From Terrabacter aerolatus (GTDB lineage Bacteria > Actinomycetota > Actinomycetes > Actinomycetales > Dermatophilaceae), in NCBI RefSeq assembly GCF_007991735.1, contig NZ_BJYX01000002.1, forward strand, positions 186,001 through 250,000: DNA of 64,000 nt, read 5' to 3'. Position numbers and translations under genes: made by a program. Numbering within the stretch: position 1 is the stretch's first letter; each line of letters starts with the position of its first letter. The notes beneath the pieces are model-generated. The model did no database searches. It was not told the DNA's origin and saw only the letters and a list, made by a program, of their open reading frames with translations. Positions 978 through 62,757 of this stretch are shown in pieces.

Positions 978-1637
978 ATGGGGGACTGGTCCTGGCCGCT
1001 GCACGGCATTCGCCTGCGCACGGCCGACCTCGACCTGCGGGTCATGACCGAGGCCGACCTGCCCGCCCTGGCGGCCCTGCTCCCCGACGACGTGGAGATG
1101 AACCCGCACGCGACGAGGTATGCCGGACTCGACCTCCGCGCGAACCGTCGGGCCGTCCTCGCGCAGGGCTACTGGCGCGCCCTCGGTCTGTGGTCGCCCG
1201 ACGACTGGGCGCTGCCGTTCGTCGTCCGCAGGGACGGCGTGGTCGTCGGTGCGCAGTGGCTCGAGGGGCCGGACTGGCGTACCGACCGCACGGTCGACTC
1301 CTCGTCGTGGCTCGTCGTGGCGGCGCGGGGGAGGGGCCTCGGCACGCAGATGCGCGCGGCCGTGCTGGCCCTCGCCTTCGGCCCGTTGCGGGCCGAGGCT
1401 GCGGTCAGCTCGGCCGTCCTGGGCAACGCGGGCTCCCTCGGCGTCTCCCGGTCGCTCGGCTACCTCGACACGCACCGGTCCGTGCTCGAGCACTCGGGTG
1501 AGACGTTGCAGCACGTGCGCCTCACCCGTACGGCGTGGTCGGCGTCCGGCCGCGGCGGCACGGACGGCCCGCACGGCGTCGTCGTCGACGGCGTGACGCC
1601 GGCCCTGCCCCTCTTCGGGATCGAGGGCCGCCCGTGA
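978..1637 (+). CDS. GNAT-family N-acetyltransferase
   Basis: A 219-residue acetyl-CoA-dependent acetyltransferase of the RimJ/RimL type; the acceptor cannot be told from sequence. The fold is supported by an N-terminal region LRVMTEADLPALAALLP, a central strand VVRRDGVVVGAQWLEG, and the acetyl-CoA loop ARGRGLGTQMR (about residues 117-127), followed by AVLGNAGSLGVSRSLGY, typical of the last helix and strand of the GNAT fold. ATG at 978 lies 12 bases after the gltX stop. The stop overlaps the next start as GTGA (1634-1637), so translational coupling with the HAD gene is likely. No dedicated promoter is visible, so the gene is probably part of the gltX transcript. Confidence 0.85.
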   Translation: MGDWSWPLHGIRLRTADLDLRVMTEADLPALAALLPDDVEMNPHATRYAGLDLRANRRAVLAQGYWRALGLWSPDDWALPFVVRRDGVVVGAQWLEGPDWRTDRTVDSSSWLVVAARGRGLGTQMRAAVLALAFGPLRAEAAVSSAVLGNAGSLGVSRSLGYLDTHRSVLEHSGETLQHVRLTRTAWSASGRGGTDGPHGVVVDGVTPALPLFGIEGRP

Positions 1638-2386
1638 GCGGCCGGTCACTCGTCGAGACGCTCCACGGGGTCCGGGCGCTCGTGCTCGACGTCGACGACA
1701 CGATCGTCGACACCCGCGAGGCGATGGTGGTCGCGGGCACCCACGCTGCGGCGTCCGTCTGGCCCCACCGCACCGGTGAGCACCGCGCCATGGCGCAGCG
1801 CTACTACGACGATCCCCAGGGCTGGTTCCCGCGCTATGCCTCAGGTGACGTCGCGTTCGAGGTGATGCGGGCCGGGCGGCTGTCGGAGGTCGCTGCGGCC
1901 TTCGGTGTCGAGGTCCCCGAGGGCGCCCACCGCTCCTACGAGGAGGCCTACGCGCCCGCCTTCCGAGGCGCCCAGCGGCTCTTCCCCGACGTGCCGGACC
2001 TGCTCGCGGCCGCCGAGGGCGAGGGCCTGCCCATCGCCCTGCTCACCAACTCCGCGCACGCCCCCACCCGGGTCAAGCTCGAGGCGCTCGACCTCGTCGG
2101 GCGCTTCGACGTCGTCGTGACCACCGACACCCTCGGCTTCGGCAAGCCCGACCCCCGGGTCTACCTCGAGGCGTGCCGGCTGCTCGACGTGGAGCCCCAC
2201 GGAGCCGTCTGCCTCGGCGACAACCTCGAGTGGGACGTGCTGGGCGCCGAGGCGGCCGGACTCCGTGCCGTCTGGCTCGACCGGGAGGGCCGTGGGACCT
2301 CCGAGGCGGTCGCCTCCGTGCGCGGTCTGGACGAGCTGACACAGGCGCTCGGGCGCCGATTTGGGCCACCGGTCACGGACCGGTAG
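1634..2386 (+). CDS. HAD-superfamily hydrolase (phosphatase)
   Basis: A 250-residue haloacid dehalogenase-like phosphatase, substrate unknown. Motif I is LVLDVDDTIVDT near residue 15 (nucleophile D plus acid/base D), motif II is ALLTNSAH, and the motif III/IV region is GFGKPDPRVYLEA followed by VCLGDNLEWDVLGAEAAG, a canonical acidic pair. The reading frame is open further upstream, but the GTG at 1634 is preferred because it overlaps the upstream stop by four bases and puts motif I at the usual distance from the N-terminus. It ends 57 bases before tRNA-Gln. Phosphoglycolate or sugar phosphates are possible substrates; nothing here decides between them. Confidence 0.86.
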   Translation: MSGRSLVETLHGVRALVLDVDDTIVDTREAMVVAGTHAAASVWPHRTGEHRAMAQRYYDDPQGWFPRYASGDVAFEVMRAGRLSEVAAAFGVEVPEGAHRSYEEAYAPAFRGAQRLFPDVPDLLAAAEGEGLPIALLTNSAHAPTRVKLEALDLVGRFDVVVTTDTLGFGKPDPRVYLEACRLLDVEPHGAVCLGDNLEWDVLGAEAAGLRAVWLDREGRGTSEAVASVRGLDELTQALGRRFGPPVTDR

Positions 2387-2443
2387 TATTCCCATTCGGT
2401 TCACCCCGTACGGGTCGCAAGGCCAGCTCGGAGTGAAACCCCT

Positions 2444-2515
2444 TGGGGTATGGTGTAATTGGCAACACTACGGTTTCTGGTTCCGTCATTCTAGGTTCGA
2501 GTCCTGGTACCCCAG
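2444..2515 (+). tRNA. tRNA-Gln (anticodon CTG)
   Basis: A full cloverleaf can be folded by hand. The acceptor arm TGGGGTA (2444-2450) pairs with TACCCCA (2508-2514), with discriminator G at 2515. The D-stem is GTGT/ACAC. The anticodon stem is ACGGT/TCCGT with anticodon CTG at 2477-2479, and the T-loop TTCGAGT is present. The 3' CCA is not encoded. It is followed 91 bases later by tRNA-Glu. Confidence 0.95.
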
Positions 2516-2579
2516 CTCTGGTCCACGGCAACGTGGTCCGATTCGGAGAAATCCAGCCTTCACGGTAAGGTTTCTTCTC

Positions 2580-2599
2580 GTGCCGAGTCCGCTCGGCAC
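2580..2599 (+). terminator. 8-bp perfect hairpin between the two tRNA genes
   Basis: GTGCCGAG (2580-2587) and CTCGGCAC (2592-2599) form a perfect stem with a TCCG loop, just upstream of tRNA-Glu. There is no T-tract. It may be a weak terminator or a processing hairpin separating the tRNAs; its role is uncertain. Confidence 0.4.
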
Positions 2600-2606
2600 C
2601 GCTCAC

Positions 2607-2812: not shown

Positions 2813-4540
2813 ATGACCGCACCGACCACCGCTGCCCCTCCGGCGGTCCATGCCGGGAGCCGCCCGTGGCGGCCCTCCCTCGGCGCCCCGCGACGGGTGT
2901 TCGACACGACCTTCTCCGGGGTCGGGCTCACCGTCGCGGCCTGGTTCTTCGCCCTGTCCCTCCTGCCGTCGCTCCTCCCGCGGGGGGCCATGGTGCAGGG
3001 CATCGCGTCCGGCGTGACCGTGATGATCGGCTACGGCCTCGGGGCCGGCGCGCAGGCCCTCTGGCGCTACCTCGGCATCCCCGGCGTGCCCGGACGCGCG
3101 CGCCGGGTGCTCGTGGCGATCTTCGTGGGGCTCGGGCTCTGGGCCGCGGTCTTCACCGGGTGGCGACAGGTCGGCTGGCAGAACGAGATCCGGACGCTCT
3201 ACGGGATGGAGCCCGCGTCGCCCACCGTGTGGCCGGTCATCATCGCGCTCACCCTGCTGCTCGCCGTCCTCATCCTCGTCGCGGCCCGGAGCCTGCGCCT
3301 GCTCTTCCGCACCGTCTTCGGATGGCTGGGGCGTCGTCTCCCTCGGCGGGTGGCGGTCGTCGTCGGCTCGGCAGTCCTCCTGGCCCTCATCTGGTCGCTG
3401 CTGACCGGCGTCCTCGTCAACGGCTTCTTCGCCGTCGCCAACAACATCTTCGCGCCGCGCGACACCCTCATCGCCGAGGACATGCGACGACCGAAGGAGC
3501 CCGAGCGCTCGGGCAGCCCCCAGTCCCTGTCGAGCTGGGAGCTGCTCGGCCGGCAGGGCCGCTACTTCGTCGGCGGCGGGCCCACGGTGGCCGAGCTCGA
3601 CGCGGCGAACGGCGGCGGAGCCAAGGAGCCCATCCGTGTCTACGCCGGCCTCCGCTCGGCCGACACCGTGCAGGGACGGGCCGACCTCGTCCTCGCCGAG
3701 CTGAAGCGCACGGGCGCCTTCGACCGCAAGGTCCTCGTCATCGCCACGACGACGGGAACCGGGTTCCTCGACCAGAACGGCACCGACCCGCTCGAGTTCC
3801 TCTGGAACGGCGACACGGCCATCGCCGGCGTGCAGTACTCGTACCTGCCTTCGTGGATCTCGCTGCTCGCCGACCAGGACGCGGTGCGCGAGACGTCGCG
3901 CGTCGTCTTCGACACGGTGCACCAGTACTGGTCGACCCTACCCGAGGCCAGCAGGCCCAAGCTCTACCTCTACGGGCTGTCGCTCGGGTCCCTCGGCGTC
4001 GAGAGCATCCTCAGCTCGATCAACGTCATCAACGAGCCCATCGACGGCGCCCTCATGTCGGGGCCGCCGTTCGTCAACGAGCTGCACGCCCGGCTCACGG
4101 CGCAGCGCCAACCCGACAGCCCGGCATACCTGCCCGTCTACGAGCAGGGGCGCACGGTGCGCTTCACCGCCGAGCAGAACGGCCTCGGCCGCGGAGGACA
4201 GGTGTGGGGACCCACCCGTCTCGTCTACCTCCAGCACGCCAGCGACCCCATCGTCTTCTTCTCCCCGAGCCTGGCGTTCACCGCGCCCGAGTGGCTCAAG
4301 GACGGCGAGAGGGGGCCCGACGTCTCCGCCCGGATGGGCTGGTTCCCGCTCGTCACGATGTGGCAGGTCCTGCTCGACCTGCCCGGCGCCGGCAGCATCC
4401 CGATGGGCTACGGCCACCTCTACTCGGCCACGTCGAACCTCGAGTCCTGGGTCGCCGTGACGAACCCACCGGGGTGGACGCCCGAGAAGACGGCCAGGCT
4501 GGGCTCGCTCCTCGAGAAGCGGCCCTACAAGGACACCTGA
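2813..4540 (+). CDS. Membrane alpha/beta hydrolase (Abhydrolase_9 / DUF2319 type), possible aminoacyl-lipid hydrolase
   Basis: A 575-residue protein. The N-terminal third carries several hydrophobic segments (about residues 35-55, 60-80, 100-120, 145-165, 180-205). A soluble catalytic part follows, with the nucleophile elbow YGLSLGSLGVES (about residue 390) and a histidine late in the protein (MGYGHLYSA) as the likely catalytic base. This layout matches the actinobacterial DUF2319 hydrolases. ATG at 2813 is preceded by AGCAAGGAG, a good ribosome-binding site; the frame is open earlier but overlaps the terminator. It converges with, and overlaps by 16 bases, the MprF-like gene. Relatives encoded beside MprF homologues (AhyD type) remove amino acids from lipids, so that role is inferred here, not proved. 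Confidence 0.78.
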   Translation: MTAPTTAAPPAVHAGSRPWRPSLGAPRRVFDTTFSGVGLTVAAWFFALSLLPSLLPRGAMVQGIASGVTVMIGYGLGAGAQALWRYLGIPGVPGRARRVLVAIFVGLGLWAAVFTGWRQVGWQNEIRTLYGMEPASPTVWPVIIALTLLLAVLILVAARSLRLLFRTVFGWLGRRLPRRVAVVVGSAVLLALIWSLLTGVLVNGFFAVANNIFAPRDTLIAEDMRRPKEPERSGSPQSLSSWELLGRQGRYFVGGGPTVAELDAANGGGAKEPIRVYAGLRSADTVQGRADLVLAELKRTGAFDRKVLVIATTTGTGFLDQNGTDPLEFLWNGDTAIAGVQYSYLPSWISLLADQDAVRETSRVVFDTVHQYWSTLPEASRPKLYLYGLSLGSLGVESILSSINVINEPIDGALMSGPPFVNELHARLTAQRQPDSPAYLPVYEQGRTVRFTAEQNGLGRGGQVWGPTRLVYLQHASDPIVFFSPSLAFTAPEWLKDGERGPDVSARMGWFPLVTMWQVLLDLPGAGSIPMGYGHLYSATSNLESWVAVTNPPGWTPEKTARLGSLLEKRPYKDT

Positions 4541-6829: not shown

Positions 6830-7837
6830 TCAGCCGAGCTCGCGCAGTCCGGGGAGGACGTCTGTGGAGAACTGGTCGAGGAAGCGTGCCTGGTCGTGGC
6901 CGGGAGCGTGGAAGACGACGTGGTTGAAGCCCCAGTCGACGTACTGGCGCACCGCGTCGACCGCCTCCGCCGGGTCGCTCGTGACGATCCAGCGCTTGGC
7001 GATCTCCTCGTCGGAGAGCTCGTCGGCGAGCCGCTCCATCTCGACCGGGTCCTCGACGCCGTGCTTCTGCTCGGCACTGAGGGACAGCGGCGCCCAGAAG
7101 CGCACGTTGTGCAGCGCCTGCTCGGGGTCGCGGTCGTAGGACAGCTTGATCTCGATCATCCGGTCGATGTCGTCGCGCGTGCGGCCTGACTTCTCGAGGC
7201 CCTCGTCGACGGCGGGAAGCAGCTTGTCCTCGTAGAGCTCGCGTCCCTTGCCGGAGGTGCAGATGAAGCCGTCACCCGACCGGCCGGCATACCGCGCGAC
7301 GAGGGGACCACCCGCGGCGACGTAGACGGGGATCGGCTGCTCGGGACGGTCGTAGACCGTCGCGGCGTGCGTGCGGTAGTAGTCGCCCTCGAAGTCGACC
7401 CGCTCCTCGGTCCAGAGGCGCCGCATCAGCGTCACCGCCTCGCGCAGCCGGGCGAAACGCTCCTTGAACTCCGGCCACGGCGAGCCCGCCGCGCCGACGG
7501 CCACCTCGTTGAGGGCCTCCCCGGTGCCGATGCCGAGGACGATGCGGCCCGGGTTGAGGGCTCCCAGCGTGCCGAAGGCCTGCGCCACGACGGCCGGGTT
7601 GTAGCGGAACGTCGGCGTCATGACCGACGTGCCGAGCTGGATGCGCTCGGTGCGCTCTCCGACGGCCGCGAGCCAGCTCATCGCGAACGGTGCGTGCCCC
7701 TCCTGGTGGCGCCAGGGCTGGAAGTGGTCGGAGATGAACGCGGAGTCGAGTCCGACCTCCTCGGCGTGGGCCGCCAACGTGACGAGGTCGCGTGGACCGA
7801 ACTGCTCCGCGGACGCCTTCCAACCAACCTTGAGCAC
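6830..7837 (-). CDS. fgd: F420-dependent glucose-6-phosphate dehydrogenase
   Basis: 335 residues, the usual Fgd length. It oxidises glucose-6-phosphate to 6-phosphogluconolactone while reducing coenzyme F420, supplying F420H2 to reductases. The sequence follows mycobacterial Fgd1 nearly end to end: KASAEQF near the start, [10 protein letters not shown] (active-site His and Trp region), [47 protein letters not shown] and [16 protein letters not shown] at 7837 has GAAGGAGTCG just upstream, with a possible -10 TAGGCT about 30 bases before the start. The F420 biosynthesis gene cofC lies 5 kb away, in line with F420 use. The L,D-transpeptidase gene lies upstream in the same direction. Confidence 0.93.
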
Positions 7838-14195: not shown

Positions 14196-14996
14196 GTGAC
14201 TGCCGGTGCACGCAGGAGGCGACTGCCCTGGGCCTATCGGGCCGTGGCGTTCGTGCTCCGGCCCCTCCTGATGCGGGTGACGAAGCGCGACTGGCGTGGG
14301 CTCGAGAACATCCCGGCCGAGGGCGGCTTCGTCGTGTCGACCAACCACATCTCCTACGCCGACCCGCTCGTCTTCGCGCACTTCATGTTCGACAGCGGAC
14401 GCGAGGCCTACTTCCTGGGCAAGGACAGTCTCTTCGCGATCCCGGTCGTCGGGTGGCTGCTCAAGAAGTGCGGCCAGATCCCCGTCTACCGCAACTCCGC
14501 GGCGGCGACCGACTCCTACCGCGCTGCCGTCGAGGGCGTGCGTGCCGGCAAGGCGCTCGGCATCTTCCCCGAGGGCACCATCACCCGGGACCCGGACCTG
14601 TGGCCGATGCGCGGCAAGACGGGCGCCGCGCGGGTCGCCCTCGAGACGCACTGCCCCCTGGTGCCCGTGGCGCAGTGGGGTGCCCAGGAGATCCTGTCGC
14701 CCTACGGGCACCGGCCCTCGCTCTTCCCGCGCAAGACGATGATGATGTATGCCGGTCCGCCCGTCGACCTGTCCGACCTCTACGACCGGCCGATCGACAC
14801 CAAGGTCCTCCGCGAGGCGACCGACCGGCTCATGGACCGCATCACCGGGCTGCTCGAGGAGCTGCGGGGCGAGAAGCGGCCCACGGAGCGGTTCGACCCA
14901 CGCACGCACGGTGTCCCTGAGATCGGGAACCCGTTGAAGCACCACGAGATCGGGCGGCCGAAGCCGCCGGCCGATCCGGACGGGAACGGGGCGTGA
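14196..14996 (+). CDS. plsC: 1-acyl-sn-glycerol-3-phosphate acyltransferase
   Basis: 266 residues; acylates lysophosphatidate to phosphatidate at the membrane. Motifs in order: NHISYAD (HX4D catalytic pair, about residue 46), the KKCGQIPVYRN block, FPEGTIT (glycerol-phosphate binding), and VPVAQWG. An N-terminal hydrophobic stretch (about 10-25) anchors it. GTG at 14196 is preceded by GAAGGAC at a good distance; the frame runs open far upstream on the opposite side of cofC, which is a composition artefact. The stop overlaps the gpsA start as GTGA, giving a coupled glycerophospholipid pair. Confidence 0.93.
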   Translation: MTAGARRRRLPWAYRAVAFVLRPLLMRVTKRDWRGLENIPAEGGFVVSTNHISYADPLVFAHFMFDSGREAYFLGKDSLFAIPVVGWLLKKCGQIPVYRNSAAATDSYRAAVEGVRAGKALGIFPEGTITRDPDLWPMRGKTGAARVALETHCPLVPVAQWGAQEILSPYGHRPSLFPRKTMMMYAGPPVDLSDLYDRPIDTKVLREATDRLMDRITGLLEELRGEKRPTERFDPRTHGVPEIGNPLKHHEIGRPKPPADPDGNGA

Positions 14997-16055: not shown

Positions 16056-16661
16056 TCAGGCCTCCCGTGCGGTGGGCGCCAGCACGCGGTCGACGACCGG
16101 GAGCGCCCGCCCGTGGTGCACGAGCCGGGTGAGCGGACGACGCACGAGCAGCCACCCGAGGCCCATGACGACGGCGCCGAGCAGGAGCCCGGCCACGACG
16201 TCGAGCGGGTAGTGCGCGCCGACGTAGACGCGCACCGCGGCCATCAGCACGGCCGCCACCGCGGCGACGGCGCCCAGCCGCCTCGAGACGAGGAGGAGCC
16301 CCATCGCGGCGGCCCCGGCCATGACCGAGTGGTCGGAGGGGAAGGACCAGTCGGTCGTCCGGTCCACGAGCACGAGGACGGAGGGGTGGCTGGCATACGG
16401 CCGGGCCTCCGCGACGAGAGCCGACACGGGCTGGTTGACCCCGACGGCGACGAGGGTTCCGAGGCCGGCCCAGACCGCGGCCGCGAGCTCGCGGTCACCC
16501 GAGCTGCGCCGCTGCCACACTCCCACGACCAGGAGGGCGGCGAACACGACGAGCCCGTACGTCGCGTAGGCGACGGCGGGGCCGTGCAGCCAGGTCGACG
16601 TCCGCGCGAAGTCGTTGACGCGCAGGAAGAGGGCGGTGCTGAGGTCGAGCAGGTTGCTCAC
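16056..16661 (-). CDS. PAP2-family membrane phosphatase
   Basis: 201 residues with about five hydrophobic segments. The three PAP2 signature blocks are present: EARPYASHPS (motif 1 region), SFPSDHSVMAG (motif 2, catalytic His) and RVYVGAHYPLDVVAG (motif 3, nucleophilic His). Members dephosphorylate undecaprenyl diphosphate or phosphatidic acid at the outer face of the membrane. Its place beside plsC-gpsA would suit either. GTG at 16661 follows AAGGACCCGCC, a reasonable ribosome-binding site. Confidence 0.88.
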   Translation of the reverse strand: MSNLLDLSTALFLRVNDFARTSTWLHGPAVAYATYGLVVFAALLVVGVWQRRSSGDRELAAAVWAGLGTLVAVGVNQPVSALVAEARPYASHPSVLVLVDRTTDWSFPSDHSVMAGAAAMGLLLVSRRLGAVAAVAAVLMAAVRVYVGAHYPLDVVAGLLLGAVVMGLGWLLVRRPLTRLVHHGRALPVVDRVLAPTAREA

Positions 16662-16759: not shown

Positions 16760-17845
16760 TCAGACGGCCGACAGCGCCCGGTCGAGATCGGCCCACAGGT
16801 CCTCGACGTTCTCGATCCCCACCGAGAGGCGCAGCAGGCTCTCGGGCACCTGCGTGGACTCGGACGGGTGGCGGCGGCGGCGCTCCACCTGCGACTCCAC
16901 GCCCCCGAGACTCGTCGAGTGCAGCCACACCCGGGTCGCGGCGCACACCCGCTCGGCCGCGTCGGCGTCACCCGCGACGTCGATCGACAGGATGGCGCCC
17001 GCACCGGGGTAGCGGACGCGCGCGACCGAAGGGTGTCCTTCGAGGCGGGCGGCGAGCTCGGCGGCGTTGGCGCTCGCACGCTCCAGCCGCACCGACAGCG
17101 TGCGCAGCCCGCGCAGGGCGAGGTAGACCTCCATCGGGCCGGCGATCGCGCCGTGCAGCGTGCGGTGCCGGCGCAGGCGCTCACCCAGCTCGCGCCCGCG
17201 CTCGGTGTCGCCGACGACCGTCGCCCCGAGCACGACGTCGCTGTGCCCGGAGAGGTACTTCGTCACCGAGTGCACGACGACATCGGCGCCGAGGGACAGG
17301 GGGCGGCAGAGCAACGGTGTCGACAGCGTGTTGTCGACGACGCTCGTCACACCGACCTCGCGGGCGCGCGCCAGGACGACGTCGAGCTCGATGACGTCCA
17401 TGAGCGGGTTCGTCGGCGACTCGAGCCACACGAGTTCGGCGGTGTCGAGGGCGGCGAGGAATCCGGCCGTGTCGGTGGCGTGCACCCGGACGACGGTCCC
17501 GCCGGCCTGCTCGTGGGCCGCGAGGAGGTCGCCGGTGCCGTTGTAGGTCGTGTCGGGGGCGACCACGGTGCCGCCGGCGGGCAGCAGGGACAGGGCCGCC
17601 GAGATGGCGCCCATTCCCGAGGCGTGCACGAGCGCACGCCCGCCCTCGAGACCGCCGAGAGCCTCCTCGAAGGCGTTCCACGTCGGGTTGCCCGACCGGG
17701 CGTAGTTGACGACGCCGTCCGCGGCATACGTGGACGTCAGCTCGACACCCACGTTGACCGAGGCCCCGGGGGAGCGCTCGGGACGACCGGACGCCACGAG
17801 GAACGTCTCCACCTGCAGCTGCTGCGAGTCCTCTTCCCTGACCAC
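16760..17845 (-). CDS. PLP-dependent transsulfuration enzyme (cystathionine gamma-synthase/lyase family)
   Basis: 361 residues. Family marks in order: YARSGNPTW (tyrosine and arginine of the neighbouring active site), GRALVHASGMGAISAALSL (PLP phosphate loop), VWLESPTNPLMDV, SVVDNTLSTPLLCRPL (aspartate binding the pyridine N), HSVTKYLSGHSDVV with the PLP lysine, and SLGGVESQVERRRRHP near the end. It cannot be split by eye between cystathionine gamma-lyase, gamma-synthase and related enzymes of Met/Cys metabolism. The frame is open upstream, but GTG at 17845 gives the family N-terminus and has a leaderless -10 box six bases away. Divergent from ddl. Confidence 0.88.
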   Translation of the reverse strand: MVREEDSQQLQVETFLVASGRPERSPGASVNVGVELTSTYAADGVVNYARSGNPTWNAFEEALGGLEGGRALVHASGMGAISAALSLLPAGGTVVAPDTTYNGTGDLLAAHEQAGGTVVRVHATDTAGFLAALDTAELVWLESPTNPLMDVIELDVVLARAREVGVTSVVDNTLSTPLLCRPLSLGADVVVHSVTKYLSGHSDVVLGATVVGDTERGRELGERLRRHRTLHGAIAGPMEVYLALRGLRTLSVRLERASANAAELAARLEGHPSVARVRYPGAGAILSIDVAGDADAAERVCAATRVWLHSTSLGGVESQVERRRRHPSESTQVPESLLRLSVGIENVEDLWADLDRALSAV

Positions 17846-17894: not shown

Positions 17895-19034
17895 ATGACC
17901 ACGGACCAGCCCCAGCCCGACCAGCCGAGCCGCCGCCCCCGCGTCGCCATCGTCTTCGGAGGCCGCTCCTCCGAGCATGCCGTCTCCTGCGCCACGGCCG
18001 CCGGAGTCCTGCGCGCCATCGACCGGAGCAAGTACGACATCGTGCCCATCGGCATCTCCCGCGACGGCCAGTGGGTCCTCGCCGCCGACGACCCGAGCCG
18101 CTTCGAGCTGACCGCCGGGCGCACGCCCGAGGTCGAGCCGAGCGCCGCGCACGTCGTCCTGCCACTCTCGACGCGCGAGACCTCCCTGACCGTCCTCGAG
18201 AGCGGACAGCCCCCGCAGGAGCTCGGCCAGGTCGACGTCGTCTTCCCGCTGCTCCACGGCCCGTTCGGCGAGGACGGCACCCTCCAGGGCTTCCTCGAGC
18301 TCTCCGACGTGCGCTACGTCGGCTCCGGCGTCCTCGCGTCCGCGGCGGGCATGGACAAGCACTACATGAAGCTCGTCTTCGCCGGGCACGGCCTGCCCGT
18401 CGGGCCGTATGCCGTCATCACCGACCGCGCGTGGCGCACCGACCGCGCCGCGGCCATGGACGCCTGCGCCGGCCTGACCTACCCCCTCTTCGTCAAGCCG
18501 GCCCGCGCCGGGTCCTCCATGGGGATCACCCGTGTCGACGACCCCGCCGGCCTCGAGGCCGCCATCGAGGTCGCCCGCGAGCACGACCCCAAGGTGCTCG
18601 TCGAGGAGGGCATCGTCGGGCGCGAGATCGAGTGCGCGGTGCTCGAGGGCCACGGCACCTCCGGGCCGCGCACCTCCGAGGTCGGCGAGATCGCCATCCA
18701 CGACAACCACGCCTTCTACGACTTCGAGGCGAAGTACCTCGCTGAGGCCGACGTCGACCTCAGCTGCCCGGCCGACGTGCCGGAGGAGGTCGCCAAGGAG
18801 GTGCGGCGCCTGGCGGCCGAGGCGTTCGAGTCCCTCGGGTGCGAGGGGCTCGCCCGCGTCGACTGCTTCTACACCGCCGACGGCCGGGTCGTCATCAACG
18901 AGATCAACACGATGCCCGGCTTCACGCCGCACTCGATGTACCCGCGGATGTGGGCGGCCTCGGGCCTGGAGTACCCCGACCTCATCGACGAGCTCATCTC
19001 GCTCGCGCTCGAGCGCCGCACCGGCCTGCGCTGA
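17895..19034 (+). CDS. ddl: D-alanine--D-alanine ligase
   Basis: 379 residues. ATP-grasp enzyme that joins two D-alanines for the peptidoglycan pentapeptide. Visible: VAIVFGGRSSEHAVSC at the N-terminus, FPLLHGPFGEDGTLQGFLEL, KPARAGSSMGITRV (nucleotide-binding loop), VEEGIVGREIE, and the Mg-binding INEINTMPGFTPHSMYPRMW. ATG at 17895 is used; the longer open frame upstream lies over the divergent promoter. No vancomycin-resistance partners are nearby, so a normal housekeeping role is likely. Confidence 0.97.
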   Translation: MTTDQPQPDQPSRRPRVAIVFGGRSSEHAVSCATAAGVLRAIDRSKYDIVPIGISRDGQWVLAADDPSRFELTAGRTPEVEPSAAHVVLPLSTRETSLTVLESGQPPQELGQVDVVFPLLHGPFGEDGTLQGFLELSDVRYVGSGVLASAAGMDKHYMKLVFAGHGLPVGPYAVITDRAWRTDRAAAMDACAGLTYPLFVKPARAGSSMGITRVDDPAGLEAAIEVAREHDPKVLVEEGIVGREIECAVLEGHGTSGPRTSEVGEIAIHDNHAFYDFEAKYLAEADVDLSCPADVPEEVAKEVRRLAAEAFESLGCEGLARVDCFYTADGRVVINEINTMPGFTPHSMYPRMWAASGLEYPDLIDELISLALERRTGLR

Positions 19035-19090
19035 CCGACCCGGCCGCGCCTGCACCCGCCCCACGGCAGCCGGCCACCCGGCATACGCGA

Positions 19091-21555: not shown

Positions 21556-22332
21556 TCACGCGAAGACGCGGGCCGACTCGACGAGCTGCACGGCATACGC
21601 AGGGCCGTGGGACGCCGCGTGCACCGCGAGGGGGTGCAGCTGGTGCAGCTCGACGAGCTCTCGCCACCCCCGCTCCAGCCCGGCGGCCTCCTCGTAGGCG
21701 GCGACGACACGGTCGAGGCCGGGGCACCCGAAGAGGGCGAGCATCGCGAGGTCCGTGAGCCCGTGGCCGCCGTGCGCGGCCGGGTCGATGAGGACCGCGC
21801 CCTGCGCGGTGAAGACGACGTTGCCCGACCAGAGGTCGCCGTGGATCCGGGCCGGAGCCCGGCTGTCGTCGAAGTCGCCGGCGAGGAGGCGGTCGCAGAC
21901 CCGGTCGACGATGCGCGCGCCGGCAGGCTCGAGGTGGCCGTGGTCGACGGCCCGCCGCACGAAGGGACGCACCCGCTGCTCCGCGTAGAACGCGCCCCAG
22001 GTCGGGGTGGGGTCGTTGCTCTGGCGCTGGCGACCGATCCACGCACCACTCGTCCAGCCGGCCGGCGGGGATCCGAAGGCGGGAGCGCCGGACCCGTGCG
22101 TGACCGCGAGCCCGCGTCCGAGGGCCTCCGCGGACGCAGGGGTCGGCCGCGTGGGCTGCAGTCGCGCGAGGTCGATGTGGTCGGCGGCGACGGCGCGCAC
22201 CTCGACGACCCGGGCCCCGCCGTGCAGCTCGGGCTCGGCGAGCCAGCGCAGGCCGGCCGCCTCGACCTCGAAGAAGCCTTCGGGCGCCGCAGGCCACGAC
22301 TTGCGGTGGTGGGCGGGGGACGTGCTCGACAC
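21556..22332 (-). CDS. Fructosamine kinase family protein
   Basis: 258 residues. Protein-kinase-like fold acting on glycated amines or related sugars: N-terminal [17 protein letters not shown], catalytic [14 protein letters not shown] (Brenner motif HxDxxxxN) near residue 180, and [19 protein letters not shown] with the metal-binding aspartate. Protein repair by deglycation is the known role of relatives; the bacterial substrate may differ. Of two GTG starts (22341, 22332), 22332 is preferred because a TAGCGT -10 box lies seven bases before it. Same direction as rpmB, divergent from the FakA-like gene. Confidence 0.88.
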
Positions 22333-36996: not shown

Positions 36997-37848
36997 GTGC
37001 CCGGGACAGATCGCGTGCACGTGACGGCGCTGACGGCATACCCCGTCAAGTCGCTCGCGGGTGTCTCCCTCGAGGCGGCGGCCGTCGAGGCGCAGGGACT
37101 CAGGGGCGACCGCCGGTGGGCGGTCGTCGACCCGGACGGCACCAAGGTGACGGCCCGTGAGGAGCACGCGCTGCTCGGGCTGCGGGCCGAACCGCTCGAC
37201 GACGGGGGCGTGCGCCTGCTCGCTCCGGGGGCTGACCCCGTCGAGGTGGCGCCACCCCGGGACGCGGCGCCCGTGAGGGTGGGCTTCTCGGGCCAGGACC
37301 GGGCCCGACCTGCGGGCTCCGTCGCCGACGACTGGCTGACCGGCCGGGTCGGGCGCTCGCTCCGCCTCGTGTGGCAGGACGACGGGACGCAGCGCCCGAT
37401 CCGGCCCGACCTCGGTGGCGAGGACGGTGACCGCAACTCGCTCTCGGACGCCGCCCCGGTCCACGTGACGTCGGAGTCGTCCCTCGCCCGGCTCAACGGC
37501 TGGGTCCTCGAGACCGCTCTCGAGCGCGGTGAGGAGCCTCGGGACGCCCTGCGGCACGAGCGGTTCCGGCCCAACGTCGTCGTGGCGGGCAGTGAGCCCT
37601 TCGTCGAGGACACGTGGTCGACGGTGCGCATCGGGGCCGTCGCCTTCCGGACGACGATGGTGTGCGACCGCTGTGTCATGACGACGATCGGACGCGACGA
37701 CCTGAGGACCGGCAAGGAGCCGATCCGCACCCTGGCTCGGCACCGCAGGTGGGAGGGTGCCACCTGGTTCGGCATCCGCCTGACCCCGGTGCTGCCGCTC
37801 GTTCCCGGTGCAACGCTCCGGGTCGGGGACGAGGTCGTGCCCGGCTGA
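36997..37848 (+). CDS. MOSC-domain protein (mARC/YcbX-like)
   Basis: 283 residues. An N-terminal MOSC_N beta-barrel (TALTAYPVKSLAGVSLEAA, about 8-120) and a C-terminal MOSC domain with the conserved cysteine in TTMVCDRCVMTTIGRD, which in relatives binds molybdenum cofactor. YcbX and mARC reduce N-hydroxylated compounds. There is no fused ferredoxin domain, so an electron donor must come from elsewhere. GTG at 36997 lies three bases after the peptidase stop, implying co-transcription. Confidence 0.87.
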   Translation: MPGTDRVHVTALTAYPVKSLAGVSLEAAAVEAQGLRGDRRWAVVDPDGTKVTAREEHALLGLRAEPLDDGGVRLLAPGADPVEVAPPRDAAPVRVGFSGQDRARPAGSVADDWLTGRVGRSLRLVWQDDGTQRPIRPDLGGEDGDRNSLSDAAPVHVTSESSLARLNGWVLETALERGEEPRDALRHERFRPNVVVAGSEPFVEDTWSTVRIGAVAFRTTMVCDRCVMTTIGRDDLRTGKEPIRTLARHRRWEGATWFGIRLTPVLPLVPGATLRVGDEVVPG

Positions 37849-39915: not shown

Positions 39916-40011
39916 GTCGCTCCTTCCGTGGGCGTGCGGTGAGTGGAGTCACCGGTGTGCCTGCCGTGAGCATAGTGACGGGTGGTACCGACACGGCGGC
40001 GCCACGCGGCA

Positions 40012-40017
40012 TACCGT
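40012..40017 (+). promoter_or_regulatory. -10 box of a leaderless promoter (acylphosphatase)
   Basis: TACCGT, six bases before GTG at 40024. It overlaps the dispersed heptamer GGCATAC (40008-40014). Confidence 0.45.
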
Positions 40018-41361: not shown

Positions 41362-41531
41362 GGCCGTCGGGTGTCGTCGTGCGCTGTCGTGTGAGCCGTC
41401 GTGGGGCAGCGGTATGCCGTCACGCCGGCGCCCGTGCGAACGCGCACGGCGCTCGCCTCCCCGGAGCAGCACCCACCGGCTAGTACGCTGACCGGGATCG
41501 CTGGCTGGCTGGACAAAGGATTTCTCGGGTC

Positions 41532-46880: not shown

Positions 46881-46913
46881 CGTATGCCGTCCGGCCCAGC
46901 CGGGCGGCATACG
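46881..46913 (+). terminator. ftsY terminator formed by an inverted pair of the dispersed octamer
   Basis: CGTATGCCG (46881-46889) and CGGCATACG (46905-46913) are exact complements. Inside them CCGGC/GCCGG continues the stem after a T-G wobble, leaving a CCA loop: about 15 bp in all. No T-tract. It lies 33 bases after the ftsY stop. Confidence 0.7.
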
Positions 46914-48960: not shown

Positions 48961-51333
48961 ATGACGGATGTGACCTCACGACGTCTCGACCTCGCCGGCA
49001 CCCGCACCTTCGCGACGCCCGGCGCCGGCCAGACCCGGCGCCGGGCGCTCGCGGAGTTCGGGTTCGGCTGGCTCCAGGAGCTCTGGCGCGAGGCCTGCGC
49101 CGGACGCCGGCACGAGGGCGTCGCCCTCGCCGCCGTCGGCTCCCTGGCCCGCGGCGACGGCGGACCGCTCAGCGACTACGACCTGGTGCTCGTGCACCAC
49201 CCGCGTGGCCTGTCGGGCAAGGAGGTCGGCGCCTTCGCCGACAAGCTCTGGTACCCGATCTGGGACGCCGGGGTGCGGCTCGACCACAGCGTCCGCACCG
49301 TGGCCGACTGCCGGGCCGTCGCGTCCGACGACCTGTCGGCCGCGGTCGGACTGCTCGACCTGACGCACGTGGCGGGTGACGCCGACGTCGTCAACGCCGC
49401 CCGCTCGACGGTGGCGCACGACTGGCGGGCCAACGCCCGCACCCGTCTCGGCGAGATGCAGGACTCGGTGGTCCAGCGGCACGCCCGCCAGGGAGATCTG
49501 GCCCACCTCATCGAGCCGGACCTCAAGGAGGCCCACGGCGGGCTGCGCGACATGTCGGTCCTGCGGGCCCTGACGGCGGCGTGGCTGACCGACCGGCCCC
49601 ACGGTGAGGTCGACGAGGCCTACGAGCGCATCCTCGACGTGCGAGACGCCATCCACGTCGTCACCGGGCGCGGCCGGGACCGGCTGACCCGCGACGACCA
49701 GGACGCGTGCGCCGCGCTGCTCGGCTACACCGACGCCGACGACCTCCTCACCGACCTCTCGACCTCGGCCCGCACGATCGCGTATGCCGTCGACGGCACC
49801 CTGCGTCGCGCCATGCAGTCCCAGCGGGCGAGGACGCTGCGTGTCGGGCCGAGGCGCCCGCAGCTCGCGCCGCTCGGCTACGGCCTCTACCGGCACGACG
49901 GCGAGGCGGTCCTCGGGCCGTCGGCCGACCTGTCGTCGGACCCGATCATCCCGATGCGCGCCGCCGTCGTCGCCGCCCGAAGCGGCATCCCGCTGTCGCC
50001 GACGACGCTGAAGAACCTCGCCGCGACCGCGCCGGGCCTGCCGGAGCCCTGGCCCGAGGTCGCCCGCAACCTCTTCGCCGACCTGCTGGCCTCTGGCCCC
50101 GGGCTCGTCACCGTCTGGGAGGGCCTCGACCTCGCCGGCGTCGTCGAGCGGTGGATCCCGGAGTGGCAGGCGGTCCGCAGCCGGCCGCAGCGCAACGCCG
50201 TCCACCGCCACACCGTCGACCGGCACCTCATCGAGACCGTCGTCGCGGCGAGCGGCATGGTCCGTGACGTCGCGCGCCCCGACCTGCTCATGCTCGCGGC
50301 GGTCCTCCACGACATCGGCAAGGTGCCGGGGTCGCAGGACCACTCCGTGACGGGGGCCGAGCTCGCCGACACGGTGCTCCAGCGGATGGGCGTCACGGAC
50401 GCCGACCGCCGGATCGTCGTGAGCCTCGTGCGCGAGCACCTCACCCTCGTCGAGCTCGCCACCCGCCGGGACCCCGAGGACCCCGCGACCATCACCGCGC
50501 TGTCCGACGCCGTCGGCGGCTCGGCCACGACCCTCGACCTGCTGCGCGCCCTCACCGAGGCGGACGCGTCGGCGGCCGGCCCCAAGGCCTGGAGCGACTG
50601 GCGAGCCGGACTCGTCCAGCGGCTCTACGAGGCCTGTCGCACGGCCCTGACCGCCCAGAGCAACCAGACCGAAGGAGAGGGGGCGCTCGTCGTGGAACCG
50701 ATCGAGACCCTGTCGCTCTCCGACGACGCCCTCGACCTGATCGCGTCCGGAGAGCCCTACGTCACCGTGTCGTCCCTCGGTGGCGCACACCGCATCGACA
50801 TCATCGACCGCGACCGCGCGGGCCTGTTCGCCGACACCGCGGGCCTGCTCGCCGCACACGGCTTCGTCGTGCGGTCGGCCATCGTGCGCACCGTCGACGG
50901 CCTCGCGGTCAACGAGTGGTGGGTCGACTCGCCGGGCGGCGAGACGCCGCTGCCACCGGTCATCGCCCGCGACCTCGTACGGGTCGGCAAGGGCGACCGC
51001 TCACCGTTGGGCAAGCTCCAGCGGCGCAAGTCCAGCGGGGTGCGCAGCCCCGGCTCGGGTTCGGTCGACTCGACGCGGGCCATGGTCATCAGCAGCGCGT
51101 CCGAGAGCGCGACGGTCATCGAGGTCCGCGCGACCGACCGGCCGGGGCTGCTCCAGGACATCGGCATCACGCTCGCCCGGGCGTCGCTGTCGGTGCGCTC
51201 GGCCCACATCGCCACGTATGCCGGCCAGACGCTCGACACGTTCTACGTGACCGAGTTCGGCGGGGGACAGCTCGCGCCGGCCCGGGCTGCGCAGGCGGTC
51301 GCGATGATCATCGACACCTGCGACGCCGACTGA
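48961..51333 (+). CDS. glnD: PII uridylyl/adenylyltransferase and removing enzyme
   Basis: 790 residues. The N-terminal nucleotidyltransferase has GSLARGDGGPLSDYDLVLVH (GSX9-11DXD). A central HD domain (LMLAAVLHDIGKVPGSQDHS, about residue 440-460) performs de-modification. Two ACT domains sit at the C-terminus (ITIDRDRAG-type stretch from about 605 and DRPGLLQDIGITLARASLSV near 725) and sense glutamine. In actinobacteria GlnD adenylylates GlnK rather than uridylylating it; this cannot be told from sequence. ATG at 48961. It is the last gene of the amt-glnK-glnD operon; a long hairpin follows. Confidence 0.95.
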   Translation: MTDVTSRRLDLAGTRTFATPGAGQTRRRALAEFGFGWLQELWREACAGRRHEGVALAAVGSLARGDGGPLSDYDLVLVHHPRGLSGKEVGAFADKLWYPIWDAGVRLDHSVRTVADCRAVASDDLSAAVGLLDLTHVAGDADVVNAARSTVAHDWRANARTRLGEMQDSVVQRHARQGDLAHLIEPDLKEAHGGLRDMSVLRALTAAWLTDRPHGEVDEAYERILDVRDAIHVVTGRGRDRLTRDDQDACAALLGYTDADDLLTDLSTSARTIAYAVDGTLRRAMQSQRARTLRVGPRRPQLAPLGYGLYRHDGEAVLGPSADLSSDPIIPMRAAVVAARSGIPLSPTTLKNLAATAPGLPEPWPEVARNLFADLLASGPGLVTVWEGLDLAGVVERWIPEWQAVRSRPQRNAVHRHTVDRHLIETVVAASGMVRDVARPDLLMLAAVLHDIGKVPGSQDHSVTGAELADTVLQRMGVTDADRRIVVSLVREHLTLVELATRRDPEDPATITALSDAVGGSATTLDLLRALTEADASAAGPKAWSDWRAGLVQRLYEACRTALTAQSNQTEGEGALVVEPIETLSLSDDALDLIASGEPYVTVSSLGGAHRIDIIDRDRAGLFADTAGLLAAHGFVVRSAIVRTVDGLAVNEWWVDSPGGETPLPPVIARDLVRVGKGDRSPLGKLQRRKSSGVRSPGSGSVDSTRAMVISSASESATVIEVRATDRPGLLQDIGITLARASLSVRSAHIATYAGQTLDTFYVTEFGGGQLAPARAAQAVAMIIDTCDAD

Positions 51334-51885: not shown

Positions 51886-51955
51886 ACCGGCGTGCGTCAG
51901 GGCGCACACGGCATACCTCCTCGGGCGTCGGGTCGGACCCACGCGCCGGAGCGGA

Positions 51956-54757: not shown

Positions 54758-55691
54758 GCACCCGTCGGAGCCGGCCGCCGACGACCCGCCGTTCACGGCG
54801 ACGGGGGAGCGCGTCGAGGTACGCCCGCCCTCGACGGCCGACATCGGGGCGTACACCGCCGCCGTCACCCTCTCGCAGCGGAGACTCTCCGACTTCGCCA
54901 TGCCCGACCCGCACAACCTGCCGGTCGTCCTCGACAACCAGTCGGCGACGTACCGCACCTTCATGGTCCACGCGCTCGACCCCGAGGGCTCGCACGGGCT
55001 CGTCGGTCGCATCAACGTCGCCAACGTCGTCGGCGGGTCCTTCCGCAGCGCGAGCGTCGGCTACGACTCCTACGACCCGTATGCCGGCCGCGGCCTCTTC
55101 TCCGAGGGACTGCGGCTCACGCTCGACCTCGTCTTCGCCGACCCGCCCCAGGGCATGGGGCTGCACCGGGTCGAGGCGAACATCCAGCCGGCCAACCACC
55201 GTTCGGCCGGGCTCGTGCGCTCGCTGGGTTTCGTCCACGAGGGCTTCTCCCGCGACTTCCTGCACCTGCCGGGCATCGACGGACGCCGTGACTGGCGCGA
55301 CCACGAGCGGTTCACCATGCTCTCGAGCGACTGGCCCGCCGTGCCCTACCGCCCGCTCGGACATCGCCGGATCGCCTGTGTCGTCATCGGTTCCGGCGGG
55401 GCGGACCACGGCTACGGCGGCACGAGCCTCGCCGCCGCCCTGGCCGCCGAGCTCGGCATCCCACTCTTCTCCTCGACCGTCGTCGACAGCACTGCCGCGC
55501 TCTTCGAGCTGCTCCGCTGCTCGCCGGTCGGGGGAGTCCTCGAGTGCCGCCTGCCCGCTCCCGAGCTGCGCATGGGTCTCGCCCGGGCCGGCTACGAGCC
55601 GTCGGGCGTGCCGGTCCTCGACCACGCCGTCGACGTGGCGCGACCGGAGGTCGTGAGGCACGCGCTCGCGGTCCGCGCCGCCCACGCCTGA
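54747..55691 (+). CDS. GNAT acetyltransferase fused to a degenerate P-loop kinase-like domain
   Basis: 314 residues. The N-terminal part (about 25-200) is a RimJ-type acetyltransferase: RVEVRPPSTADIGAYTAAVT, SVGYDSYDPYAGRGLFSEGL and HRVEANIQPANHRSAGLVRS. From about 206 a second domain begins with a strand RRIACVVIGSGGADHGYGG and a helix TSLAAALAAELGIPLFSSTV, which has the shape of a P-loop kinase start, but the usual GK[ST] is missing. The enzyme may therefore bind without hydrolysing. TTG at 54747 is chosen because GAGG lies six bases upstream; GTG at 54726 is the alternative. It overlaps the amidohydrolase stop. Confidence 0.72.
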   Translation: MSAEHPSEPAADDPPFTATGERVEVRPPSTADIGAYTAAVTLSQRRLSDFAMPDPHNLPVVLDNQSATYRTFMVHALDPEGSHGLVGRINVANVVGGSFRSASVGYDSYDPYAGRGLFSEGLRLTLDLVFADPPQGMGLHRVEANIQPANHRSAGLVRSLGFVHEGFSRDFLHLPGIDGRRDWRDHERFTMLSSDWPAVPYRPLGHRRIACVVIGSGGADHGYGGTSLAAALAAELGIPLFSSTVVDSTAALFELLRCSPVGGVLECRLPAPELRMGLARAGYEPSGVPVLDHAVDVARPEVVRHALAVRAAHA

Positions 55692-55754
55692 CGAGGCGGA
55701 CGGCATACGCCCCCCGACGTCCTCACGAGGGCGTGTCCGGAGCACCCCCTCGCG

Positions 55755-59279: not shown

Positions 59280-59308
59280 TTCTGGTATGCCGTGTGCTCT
59301 GGCAGACT
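59280..59308 (+). promoter_or_regulatory. Candidate rplS promoter
   Basis: TTCTGG (59280-59285), 17 bases, CAGACT (59303-59308), within TCTGGCAGACT, nearly identical to the element before rpsP. The spacer contains the dispersed heptamer GTATGCC (59285-59291). The leader to rplS is about 150 bases. Confidence 0.45.
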
Positions 59309-59880: not shown

Positions 59881-60654
59881 ATGGGCCCCGAAGGGGACGC
59901 CCCGGAGACATCCGGGACGACCTCGACCTCGGGGTCCACCGCGCCTTCGTCGCGTCCGGGGGAGTCCGCGGCGACCGACACCCGTGCGGCAGGGCGCGGC
60001 GGGGCGTATGCCGCGGCCCGGCGTCACCGGTGGCTGCTCGGTCCCGCGCTGCTGCTGCTCGCGGTCGTCGTGGTGCGCGCCTTCCTCGTGACGCCGTTCG
60101 GCATCCCGAGCCAATCGATGGAGGACACGCTGCTCATCGGCGACCGCATCCTCGTGAGCCGGACCACCGCGCCGACGGACCTCCAGCGGGGCGACATCGT
60201 CGTCTTCGACGCCTCGCAGGCCTTCAACCTGCGCGTGCCCGAGCGGGGCGTCGTCCAGACGCTCGTCGAGGCCGTCGAGAGCCTGGCCGGCAAGGGCCAG
60301 CCCACCGACTACGTCAAGCGCGTCATCGGCGTGCCGGGCGACCACGTGCGGTGCTGCTCGGCCGACGGCCGGCTCGAGATCAACGGGGTCGCGGTGACCG
60401 AGCCGTACATCGCCCCGGGCCAGAAGCCGAGCAACCTCACCTTCGACGTGACGGTCCCACCCGACCGGTTCTGGGTCATGGGAGACAACCGGGGCTCGTC
60501 GTCGGACTCGCGTGCGCACCTCGGGGATCCGGGTGGCGGCATGGTGCCGGGGGACGACATGATCGGCAAGGTTTGGGTGCGATACTGGCCGCTCGATCGG
60601 CTCGGACCGGTCGACCAAGGACAAATTGCCTCCGTCCCACGAAATGGTGAGTGA
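59881..60654 (+). CDS. lepB: Signal peptidase I (first copy)
   Basis: 257 residues. A Ser/Thr/Gly-rich cytoplasmic N-terminus (to about 45), one membrane helix (about 51-70), then the catalytic domain: nucleophile Ser79 in IPSQSMEDTLLIGDR, general base Lys146 in DYVKRVIGVPGDHV, and MGDNRGSSSDSR near the C-terminus. It removes signal peptides on the outer face. ATG at 59881 is preferred over GTG at 59866 because GCGAGGCG is just upstream. The stop overlaps the start of a second lepB. Confidence 0.93.
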   Translation: MGPEGDAPETSGTTSTSGSTAPSSRPGESAATDTRAAGRGGAYAAARRHRWLLGPALLLLAVVVVRAFLVTPFGIPSQSMEDTLLIGDRILVSRTTAPTDLQRGDIVVFDASQAFNLRVPERGVVQTLVEAVESLAGKGQPTDYVKRVIGVPGDHVRCCSADGRLEINGVAVTEPYIAPGQKPSNLTFDVTVPPDRFWVMGDNRGSSSDSRAHLGDPGGGMVPGDDMIGKVWVRYWPLDRLGPVDQGQIASVPRNGE

Positions 60655-61538
60655 TGTCGCAGTACACCGGACGCCCCGAAGACCCGACGCGCGGGCGCAC
60701 TGCTGACGACACCGACGAGCTGGACGACGACCTCGACGACGACTACGACGACGAGCCCCGCAGCTTCGGCGCGGCGGTCCTGGCCGGCATCAAGGAGCTC
60801 GTCATCGTCGTCGTGCTCGCCATGGCGCTCTCGTTCGTCGTCAAGACGTGGCTCTTCCAGGCCTTCTACATCCCGTCCGGCTCGATGGAGAACACCCTCG
60901 TCAAGGACGACCGCGTCATCGTCAGCAAGCTGACGCCGGGCCCGTTCGACCTCAAGCGCGGCGACGTCGTCGTCTTCGAGGACCCGGGCGTGCCCAGCCC
61001 CTGGCTCGGTGACCTGAGCGCCCAGCACAGCACGGTCGGCGGTCCCTTCCACGACGCGCTCGTCTTCGTCGGACTCCTCCCCGAGGACTCCGAGAACCAC
61101 CTCATCAAGCGCGTCATCGGGCTGCCCGGCGATCACGTCCAGGCCGACGGCGACACGGGCAAGATCAAGGTCAACGGCGTCGAGATCACCGAGCCCTACG
61201 TCAAGCCGGGCGACTACCCCAGCGAGGGCAAGAAGTTCGACATCACCGTCCCGGCGGGCCGCATCTGGGTCATGGGTGACCACCGCAGCGACTCGTCCGA
61301 CAGCCGCTGGCACGACGACGGCACCGGCGCCACCGGCTCCGTCCCGATGGACAAGATCGTCGGCCGGGCCCTGTTCGTCGTGTGGCCCATCGACCACGTG
61401 ACGTGGCTCGGCGTCCCCGAGCGCACCTTCTCCCAGGTTCCGACGGCCACGACGCCGTCGACGTCGCCGACGAAGAAGGCCACGGTCAACCCCGGCCAGG
61501 GCAGCAAGCCGAGCGCGTCGACGACGAAGGCCGGCTGA
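60654..61538 (+). CDS. lepB: Signal peptidase I (second copy)
   Basis: 294 residues. The N-terminus is strongly acidic ([15 protein letters not shown], about 21-35), unlike the Ser/Thr-rich first copy. One membrane helix (about 44-66), catalytic Ser77 in [15 protein letters not shown] and Lys152 in [14 protein letters not shown]; the box [14 protein letters not shown] has His in place of Asn. A Thr/Ser/Lys-rich tail ends the protein. ATG at 60654 overlaps the first lepB stop (TGATG). Tandem copies suggest division of labour among exported substrates. Confidence 0.93.
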
Positions 61539-61555
61539 TCGGCAGCCCCCGCACC

Positions 61556-62329
61556 ATGGCACGTCCCGCACCCTCCACGAAACCCTCGCTCCGGGTCGAG
61601 CGCGCCCTGCAGCGCTCCGGGCACCGACTGCTCGCCGGCATGGACGAGGTCGGTCGCGGCGCCCTCGCAGGCCCCGTCAGCGTCGGTGTCGTCGTCATCG
61701 ACGAGACGGTGCGGTCGGCGCCGATCGGGGTCAAGGACTCGAAGCTGCTGACCGAGAAGGCCCGCACCGTGCTCCTGCCCCGCATCCAGCGCTGGGCCGT
61801 GGCCCACGCCGTCGGCCATGCGAGCGCCGACGAGATCGACGAGATCGGCATCATGAGGGCGCTGCGCCTGGCCGGCACGCGGGCCCTCGGCGCGCTCGGT
61901 GTCGTGCCCGACCTCGTCATCCTCGACGGCAACCACGACTGGCTCACCGACCCCGGCGAGGTCGGTCTCCTCGCCTTCGCCGGCGAGGGTGCAGGGCCGT
62001 GCACGCCCCCGGTCACGACGATGATCAAGGCCGACATGAAGTGTTCGTCGGTCGCCGCGGCCAGCGTGCTGGCGAAGGTGGAGCGCGACGCCATGATGGT
62101 GGCGCTCTCGGCCGAGCACCCGGCATACGCCTGGTCGCTCAACAAGGGCTACTCGGCGCCCGAGCACATGGATGCCCTCGCGCGCCTCGGGCCGTGCGAG
62201 CTGCACCGGCGGTCGTGGCGACTGCCCGGGGTCCACGTGGACGGGCCGGTCGGGGTGTTGAATGAGGGGACGGAGAACCTCGCTCCGGTGCCCACGACGG
62301 CAGAGCAGACAGGGACGGCGATCAGGTGA
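61556..62329 (+). CDS. rnhB: Ribonuclease HII
   Basis: 257 residues. Cuts RNA within RNA-DNA hybrids, including single ribonucleotides. Acidic catalytic residues lie in [30 protein letters not shown], and [20 protein letters not shown]; the C-terminus has [10 protein letters not shown] followed by an extra ~25-residue tail. ATG at 61556. Its stop overlaps the DUF2469 start as GTGA. Confidence 0.95.
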
Positions 62330-62646
62330 GTTCGGAAGATCTCGAGAAGTACGAGACCGAGATGGAGCTCCAGCTCTACAAGGAGTACCGCGACGTCGTC
62401 GGCCTCTTCACCCATGTCGTCGAGACCGAGCGCCGCTTCTACCTCGCCAACTCCGTCGACGTGAAGGTGCGCAGCGACGGGGGTGAGGTCTTCTTCGACG
62501 TCACCATGGCCGACGCCTGGGTGTGGGACATCTACCGTCCGGCGCGCTTCGTCAAGAACGTGCGCGTCGTGACGTTCAAGGACGTCAACGTCGAGGAGCT
62601 GCCCAAGCCCGACATCAAGCTCCCGGAGAGCGGCGACTTCAGCTGA
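62326..62646 (+). CDS. DUF2469 family protein
   Basis: 106 residues, highly conserved in actinobacteria and always near rnhB and yraN, function unknown. Acidic helix [20 protein letters not shown] at the N-terminus, then [20 protein letters not shown] and a compact C-terminal part [23 protein letters not shown] at 62326 overlaps rnhB by four bases. No catalytic motif is apparent. Confidence 0.92.
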
Positions 62647-62757
62647 CGCCGGGCTCCGCGTCCGGCTCGTCCACACCCCCTCACCGGTCACGTATGCCGT
62701 CCACAGCCTGCCCCTGGGCGGTGTCCTCGCTGGGGTGGCGCCGCGAGGGTGGTCGTC

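Follow-up and report, generated by a model that had tools for sequence, protein, structure and literature searches.

A stretch of 64,000 nucleotides from Terrabacter aerolatus (Dermatophilaceae), referred to here as the window, carries many scattered copies of the octamer GTATGCCG. This word is probably a DNA-uptake sequence with dialects, by analogy with those of the Neisseriaceae and Pasteurellaceae, a reading that is given a probability of roughly 70%. Its abundance, its distribution, the conservation of its positions, its dialects and the presence of ComEA/ComEC and TadE genes are observed directly.

The SMC protein has its best match in Terrabacter tumescens (96% protein identity), in keeping with a source in Terrabacter or a very close relative. 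The genome from which the window comes (G000, 4.42 Mb in 62 contigs) contains 2163 copies of GTATGCCG, divided almost equally between the two orientations (1072 forward, 1091 reverse), while the same word read backwards is 11-fold rarer (195 copies, 90 + 105). In 484 kb of this genome, 263 copies were seen against 1.8 expected, with the word copies masked from the background, because unmasked copies inflate it when expectations for one-mismatch copies are calculated. With such masking, one-mismatch copies were seen and expected at 313 and 222 in the same genome, 299 and 213 in G173, a relative from another genus, 224 and 172 in G178, 681 and 484 in G098, and 104 and 111 in G064.

The window itself had drawn attention through the heptamer GTATGCC, for which a sequence-only reading had listed 31 sites; all 31 lie exactly where they had been placed, 15 on the plus strand and 16 on the minus strand, and 29 extend to the octamer, the exceptions at 16392 and 25744 having been correctly named. 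Among the 8-mers of the window, GTATGCCG ranks first, with 29 copies against 0.86 expected from a second-order Markov model, and dinucleotide-preserving shuffles of the window yield a mean of 1.45 heptamers and a maximum of 5. The chance level of about six heptamers and two octamers suggested earlier was thus too high. The impression that A never precedes the word is true of the window (0 of 31), but over a larger sample, 464 kb with 254 copies, A stands before 2% of them. Avoidance on the other side is as strong, with A following 1.6% of copies compared to about 25% after GCCG generally.

Predicted genes, called with a simple self-trained gene finder, make up 89.4% of the window, and 12 of the 31 heptamers fall outside them, close to the ten or so that had been supposed. 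In the 464 kb, 75 of the 254 octamers are intergenic (1.55/kb) and 179 are genic (0.43/kb), a 3.6-fold difference in density. The density is highest in gaps between convergent genes (3.2/kb) and lowest between divergent ones (0.9/kb), and among 13 pairs of words no more than 60 bases apart, 10 face each other (binomial P about 1e-4). An intergenic excess over Markov expectation recurs in G173, G087, G178, G064 and G098. In G173, which was sampled as 20 evenly placed 20-kb stretches of its single contig, the excess is smaller (1.2/kb intergenic and 0.7/kb genic), and the orientations are again balanced (151 forward, 153 reverse). Word density is not related to G+C content (r -0.05 over 92 bins of 5 kb), and no sign of compositional word-poor islands was seen, although no search was aimed at mobile elements.

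The octamer is the core of a weak longer consensus. Around intergenic copies in the T. aerolatus genome this reads roughly G..G.C-GTATGCCG-TgtGGC, with T directly 3' of the core in 63% of the 75 copies, while in G173 it is different, g-GTATGCCG-CGgG. Within genes, the word also imposes codons that are otherwise avoided, as had been noticed from the sequence: all 19 genic copies of the window share one phase, giving TAT-GCC or GCA-TAC. In this genome, tyrosine is encoded by TAT in 111 of 122 cases in the context xxG-TAy-GCC-Gxx and in 54 of 2138 elsewhere.

Positions of the word are conserved between species. The comEC region (15 to 20 kb) of nine congeneric genomes was aligned with MAFFT; of 546 ordered pairs without gaps, 406 (74%) retain GTATGCCG exactly, compared to 16627 of 46573 (36%) for neighbouring 8-mers. 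The alignment is poor over part of the G000 stretch, and since ordered pairs are not independent, these figures are to be taken as an effect size rather than a P value. At several of the aligned sites, species differ by one step, having either GTATGCCG or GTACGCCG.

Dialect words across the family

GTATGCCG is abundant in all nine genomes of the genus (1423 to 2358 copies). The family is recognised as Dermatophilaceae/Intrasporangiaceae by its named neighbours, among them Janibacter, Serinicoccus, Phycicoccus and Flexivirga. Among 186 genomes of the family, 107 have 394 to 4724 copies and the remaining 79 have 7 to 361, whereas the 273 genomes of other families in an even sample of the order have 0 to 177, so that the word is abundant in none of them. 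Word-poor genomes are found beside word-rich ones in the same genus (G016 in g4, G122 in g42 and G092 in g33).

K-mer counts in the word-poor genomes revealed other words, which were then counted within the family and in a few named loci of 14-24 kb outside it. GGATGCCG has 2099 to 4480 copies in seven of the 186 genomes (in g9, g15 and g51) and does not exceed 1336 in any other. GAAGGGGG has 1017 to 2069 copies in 19 genomes, comprising all 16 of g27 and all three of g36, and no more than 182 elsewhere in the family; two named Janibacter loci of 23.6 kb each hold 11 copies and 1 copy. These words are likewise enriched between genes in sampled DNA: 19 copies of GGATGCCG against 0.92 expected in G178 and nine of GAAGGGGG against 0.66 in G064, with both of the two close pairs facing inward in each case.

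GTATGCCG, GGATGCCG and GAAGGGGG are nearly exclusive dialects that follow clades on a tree of ComEC and ComEA. The tree holds 24 of 33 loci; for the other nine, the predicted proteins did not include both ComEA and ComEC, and they were left out. On it, GAAGGGGG occupies one clade and GGATGCCG two places (G026/G178 and G044), while GTATGCCG is scattered all over it and may be the ancestral word. Two genomes are mixed, G044 and G045, with 1217 and 1189 copies of GTATGCCG plus 2195 and 2099 of GGATGCCG. The dialect words have positions 1, 3, 5 and 8 in common, which are G, A, G and G.

A further form, GTACGSCG, reaches at least 1800 copies in 11 of the 186 genomes. GTACGCCG is convincingly enriched between genes in G098 (27 vs 2.2) and is, less surely than GGATGCCG and GAAGGGGG, a dialect. 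The same test of GTACGSCG elsewhere is weak in G023 (6 vs 0.9) and G010 (5 vs 1.2) and negative in G022 (2 vs 1.6). Because of this unevenness, and because GTACGGCG in G092 lies largely within the 12-bp palindrome CGCCGTACGGCG, GTACGSCG was not accepted wholly as a dialect. The genomes that reach the cut-off for GTATGCCG, GGATGCCG or GAAGGGGG number 131 of 186, or 141 if GTACGSCG is added. TTGCCGTT in G162 (14 vs 0.38) was considered and dropped, as it occurs mostly in one coding phase and five close pairs are overlapping tandem copies.

G152 and G155 have raised numbers of both GTATGCCG (625 and 836) and GTACGSCG (1829 and 1611), as if changing dialect. In G092 (L124-L127, L234-L243), GTACGGCG occurs 173 times in 280 kb against 40 expected, mostly as half of CGCCGTACGGCG and often between genes, and could represent either a further dialect or an unrelated palindromic repeat. 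G098 (L224-L233, L196, L197) and G022 (L186, L187, L208) share recurring intergenic words around TCTCGATA and CTACTCGA. These stand apart from the octamers studied here and may be parts of a longer repeat. The same G022 loci have intergenic runs of C, with 24 copies of CCCCCCCC in 46 kb against 1.7 expected.

Possible readers of the word

The roles first proposed for the word were an open list: DNA uptake, a Chi-like site, or the site of an architecture protein or methyltransferase. Uptake is now favoured, and a RecBCD Chi site has become unlikely. Taken together, the core, its flanks, the balanced orientations, the lack of replichore bias in the complete relative G173, the inverted pairs, the conservation, the dialects and the existence of mixed and word-less genomes suggest that GTATGCCG works like an uptake sequence, with about the confidence given at the outset.

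Genes for DNA import are widespread. ComEC is found in 180 of the 186 family genomes and TadE in 181, and in the T. aerolatus genome ComEC adjoins a ComEA that carries SLBB and helix-hairpin-helix domains. PilM, a marker of type IV pili, was found in only seven of the 186 genomes and not in that of T. aerolatus; minor pilins were not surveyed. Since PilM was not found in the other 179, a type IV minor pilin resembling ComP is an unlikely reader. None of ComEC, TadE and PilM separates word-rich from word-poor genomes among the 186, and a comparison of the comEA-comEC locus in 13 genomes revealed no additional gene that marks the word-rich ones. The helix-hairpin-helix of ComEA looks alike by eye across dialects, so ComEA itself is probably not the reader, and the specificity factor probably lies elsewhere.

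On the favoured reading, a receptor on the surface of competent cells would prefer fragments that bear the word. Candidates are the minor pilins of the Tad pilus, or some other protein that is exported. ComEA and ComEC would then import the DNA, and recombination would insert it into the chromosome. Over time, such biased import would spread the word, mainly to nearly harmless sites, namely intergenic DNA, inverted pairs that can also serve as terminators, and Tyr-Ala or Ala-Tyr pairs within genes. As the preference of the receptor drifted, the word would change as well, giving rise to dialects in different genera. The receptor, the competence of the cells and the bias in uptake are inferred. 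In its fuller form, held with somewhat less assurance, this would be a GnAnGnnG self-recognition code for natural transformation in Gram-positive Actinobacteria, with three or more, perhaps five, dialects in a single family and a receptor that lies outside the type IV pilus system and is probably linked to the Tad pilus. If true, it would imply that bacteria lacking any recognisable type IV pilus have a sequence-reading receptor new to science, and would predict both which soil actinobacteria are transformable and what tag they use. The 186 genomes with their natural word switches are material for a search for this receptor.

A number of results weigh against an uptake sequence. Among the family genomes, 45 of 186 fall below every cut-off for the words tested, and ComEC and TadE are also present where all of these words are missing, which means that neither gene discriminates. 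The likeness of ComEA across dialects counts on the same side. In G173, convergent gaps are not preferred and the close pairs comprise seven inward, six outward and two direct. G042 has 33 copies of GGATGCCG in 20 kb, at the same density in genes and between them. The arrangement of copies along the chromosome is not constant either, as the even spacing described below is not seen in G173 (variance/mean 1.05) or G098 (1.14). Finally, no data on uptake or competence in the family were found among the open-access matches listed, a coverage outside which most subscription-journal papers and bioRxiv fall.

The main competitor is an intracellular DNA-binding protein, involved in chromosome architecture or compaction, that would use the word as its site, selection keeping the sites spread out. 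Copies in the T. aerolatus genome are indeed spaced more evenly than random ones (variance/mean 0.52 vs 1.05; none of 2000 simulations was as low), and the extended consensus and strong conservation of positions would suit a bound site. So would the lack of polarity in G173, where, with dnaA at 2.77 Mb and the terminus assumed to lie opposite, no replication-strand bias was seen (of 304 copies, 145 were leading and 159 lagging; P 0.46). However, evenness is missing in G173 and G098, is borderline in G178 (0.51, P 0.05) and is not significant in G087 (0.67, P 0.15), and the switches of word between related genera, the mixed dialects and the patchy absence would be better explained by a surface specificity factor. 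Such a protein is therefore possible but unlikely to account for the word.

A site for a methyltransferase or other modification, at which the word would be kept by biased repair or by protection from an endonuclease, has the HIP1 sequence of cyanobacteria as its point of comparison. It would fit a word sharply bounded at 8 bp, with hardly any A at either flank, and a patchy distribution like that of mobile modification genes. Yet the word is not a palindrome, and modification leaves the weak outer consensus, the intergenic inverted pairs and the stepwise dialects unexplained, which makes it decidedly improbable.

Very little probability is given to a Chi-like recombination signal for a helicase-nuclease of the RecBCD or AddAB type. 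The size of the octamer and its abundance speak for such a signal, and Chi words vary among taxa. Chi is read by the RecC subunit, however, and RecC (PF04257) was not found in eight of the nine genomes of the genus, including that of T. aerolatus, the sole carrier being G006; AddAB and AdnAB were not searched for. The word is also denser between genes, and the missing RecC together with the absence of strand bias in G173 makes a RecBCD Chi site unlikely. RecC is patchy in the family as a whole (89 of 186 genomes), and the word-poor G016 has it. A polar site like those of FtsK (KOPS) is disfavoured as well, since it needs polarity toward the terminus, which is not seen in G173.

An origin from bias in codons, dipeptides or mutation, to which the single phase of the 19 genic window copies might point and which was the explanation that the sequence-only reading had thought could undo its case, is judged excluded by the reversal of tyrosine codon choice in the exact context of the word and the intergenic excess, while the rarity of the reversed word and the retention of sites twice as often as their neighbours also count against it.

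Copies in the window

Copies of GTATGCCG within genes are found on the plus strand at 1118..1125, 14747..14754, 18407..18414, 26672..26679, 32729..32736 and 55079..55086, twice in a glnD-like gene (49782..49789 and 51216..51223), and in an M3 peptidase gene at 35376..35383 and at its end (36969..36976). Genic copies on the minus strand lie at 4122..4129, 7285..7292, 17722..17729, 30402..30409, 62121..62128, in an acyltransferase gene (39084..39091) and at 37034..37041, the last inverted relative to the copy at 36969. The two sites that stop at the heptamer are both on the minus strand and in genes: 16392..16398, where the next base is A, and 25744..25750, in a recG-like gene, where it is T.

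Intergenic copies on the plus strand are at 41412..41419, upstream of smc, and at 59285..59292, 60006..60013 and 62692..62699; those on the minus strand are at 19079..19086, 21591..21598, 35050..35057, 40007..40014, 55701..55708 and, upstream of an ffh-like gene, 51909..51916. Downstream of an ftsY-like gene, a plus-strand copy (46882..46889) and a minus-strand copy (46905..46912) form the left and right arms of a hairpin at 46882..46912. This inverted pair has a 14-bp stem and a 3-nt loop, with a predicted energy of -28.5 kcal/mol (z -4.7 vs shuffles), and resembles a terminator. Between the copy upstream of smc and this hairpin, the smc-ftsY stretch (41420-46881) is free of the word for 5.5 kb, the second-longest gap in the window.

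Comparison with known systems

HIP1 and Chi are over-represented octamers, as is GTATGCCG. HIP1 is a palindrome and Chi is strand-polar, while GTATGCCG is not palindromic and shows no strand bias in G173; moreover, the RecBCD reader of Chi lacks its RecC subunit in the T. aerolatus genome. No report of the word, or of uptake sequences in the family, was found among the open-access matches listed.

The actinobacterium Micrococcus luteus offers a comparable set of genes. Its natural transformation, through a Tad/Flp pilus, is described as involving comEA, comEC and tad genes, with no comG cluster (PMC4322843, PMC6370729, as far as the accessible parts of these papers go). The likeness lies in the ComEA/ComEC and tad gene set and is drawn at the level of genes. 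The difference is that none of “uptake sequence”, “uptake signal” or “sequence specific” appears as a term in the accessible text of PMC4322843.

The uptake signal sequences (USS) of the Pasteurellaceae, according to the available portions of the two reports, show no preferred orientation, have a core flanked by a weaker consensus (PMC1939737) and fall into two dialects along the phylogeny (PMC12616744). GTATGCCG shares all of these features: a core with weaker flanks, balanced orientations and dialects. However, its flanks are G+C-rich, while those of the USS are A/T tracts (PMC1939737, in the part available), and the machinery differs.

The resemblance extends further to the DNA-uptake sequences (DUS) of the Neisseriaceae, for which the sections available of PMC3630211 describe dialects along the phylogeny, frequent inverted pairs, intergenic copies, one genome with two dialects and members without the word. 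Here, too, a short, abundant, intergenic word occurs in inverted pairs and in dialects, and there are mixed-dialect and word-less genomes. The word itself is a different one, the hosts are Gram-positive actinobacteria with ComEA/ComEC and TadE and, in 179 of 186 genomes, no PilM hit, and uptake is proposed by analogy. Self-specific DNA uptake has already been described for the Neisseriaceae and Pasteurellaceae, and a Gram-positive case with dialects of its own, if true, would suggest that it had more than one origin.

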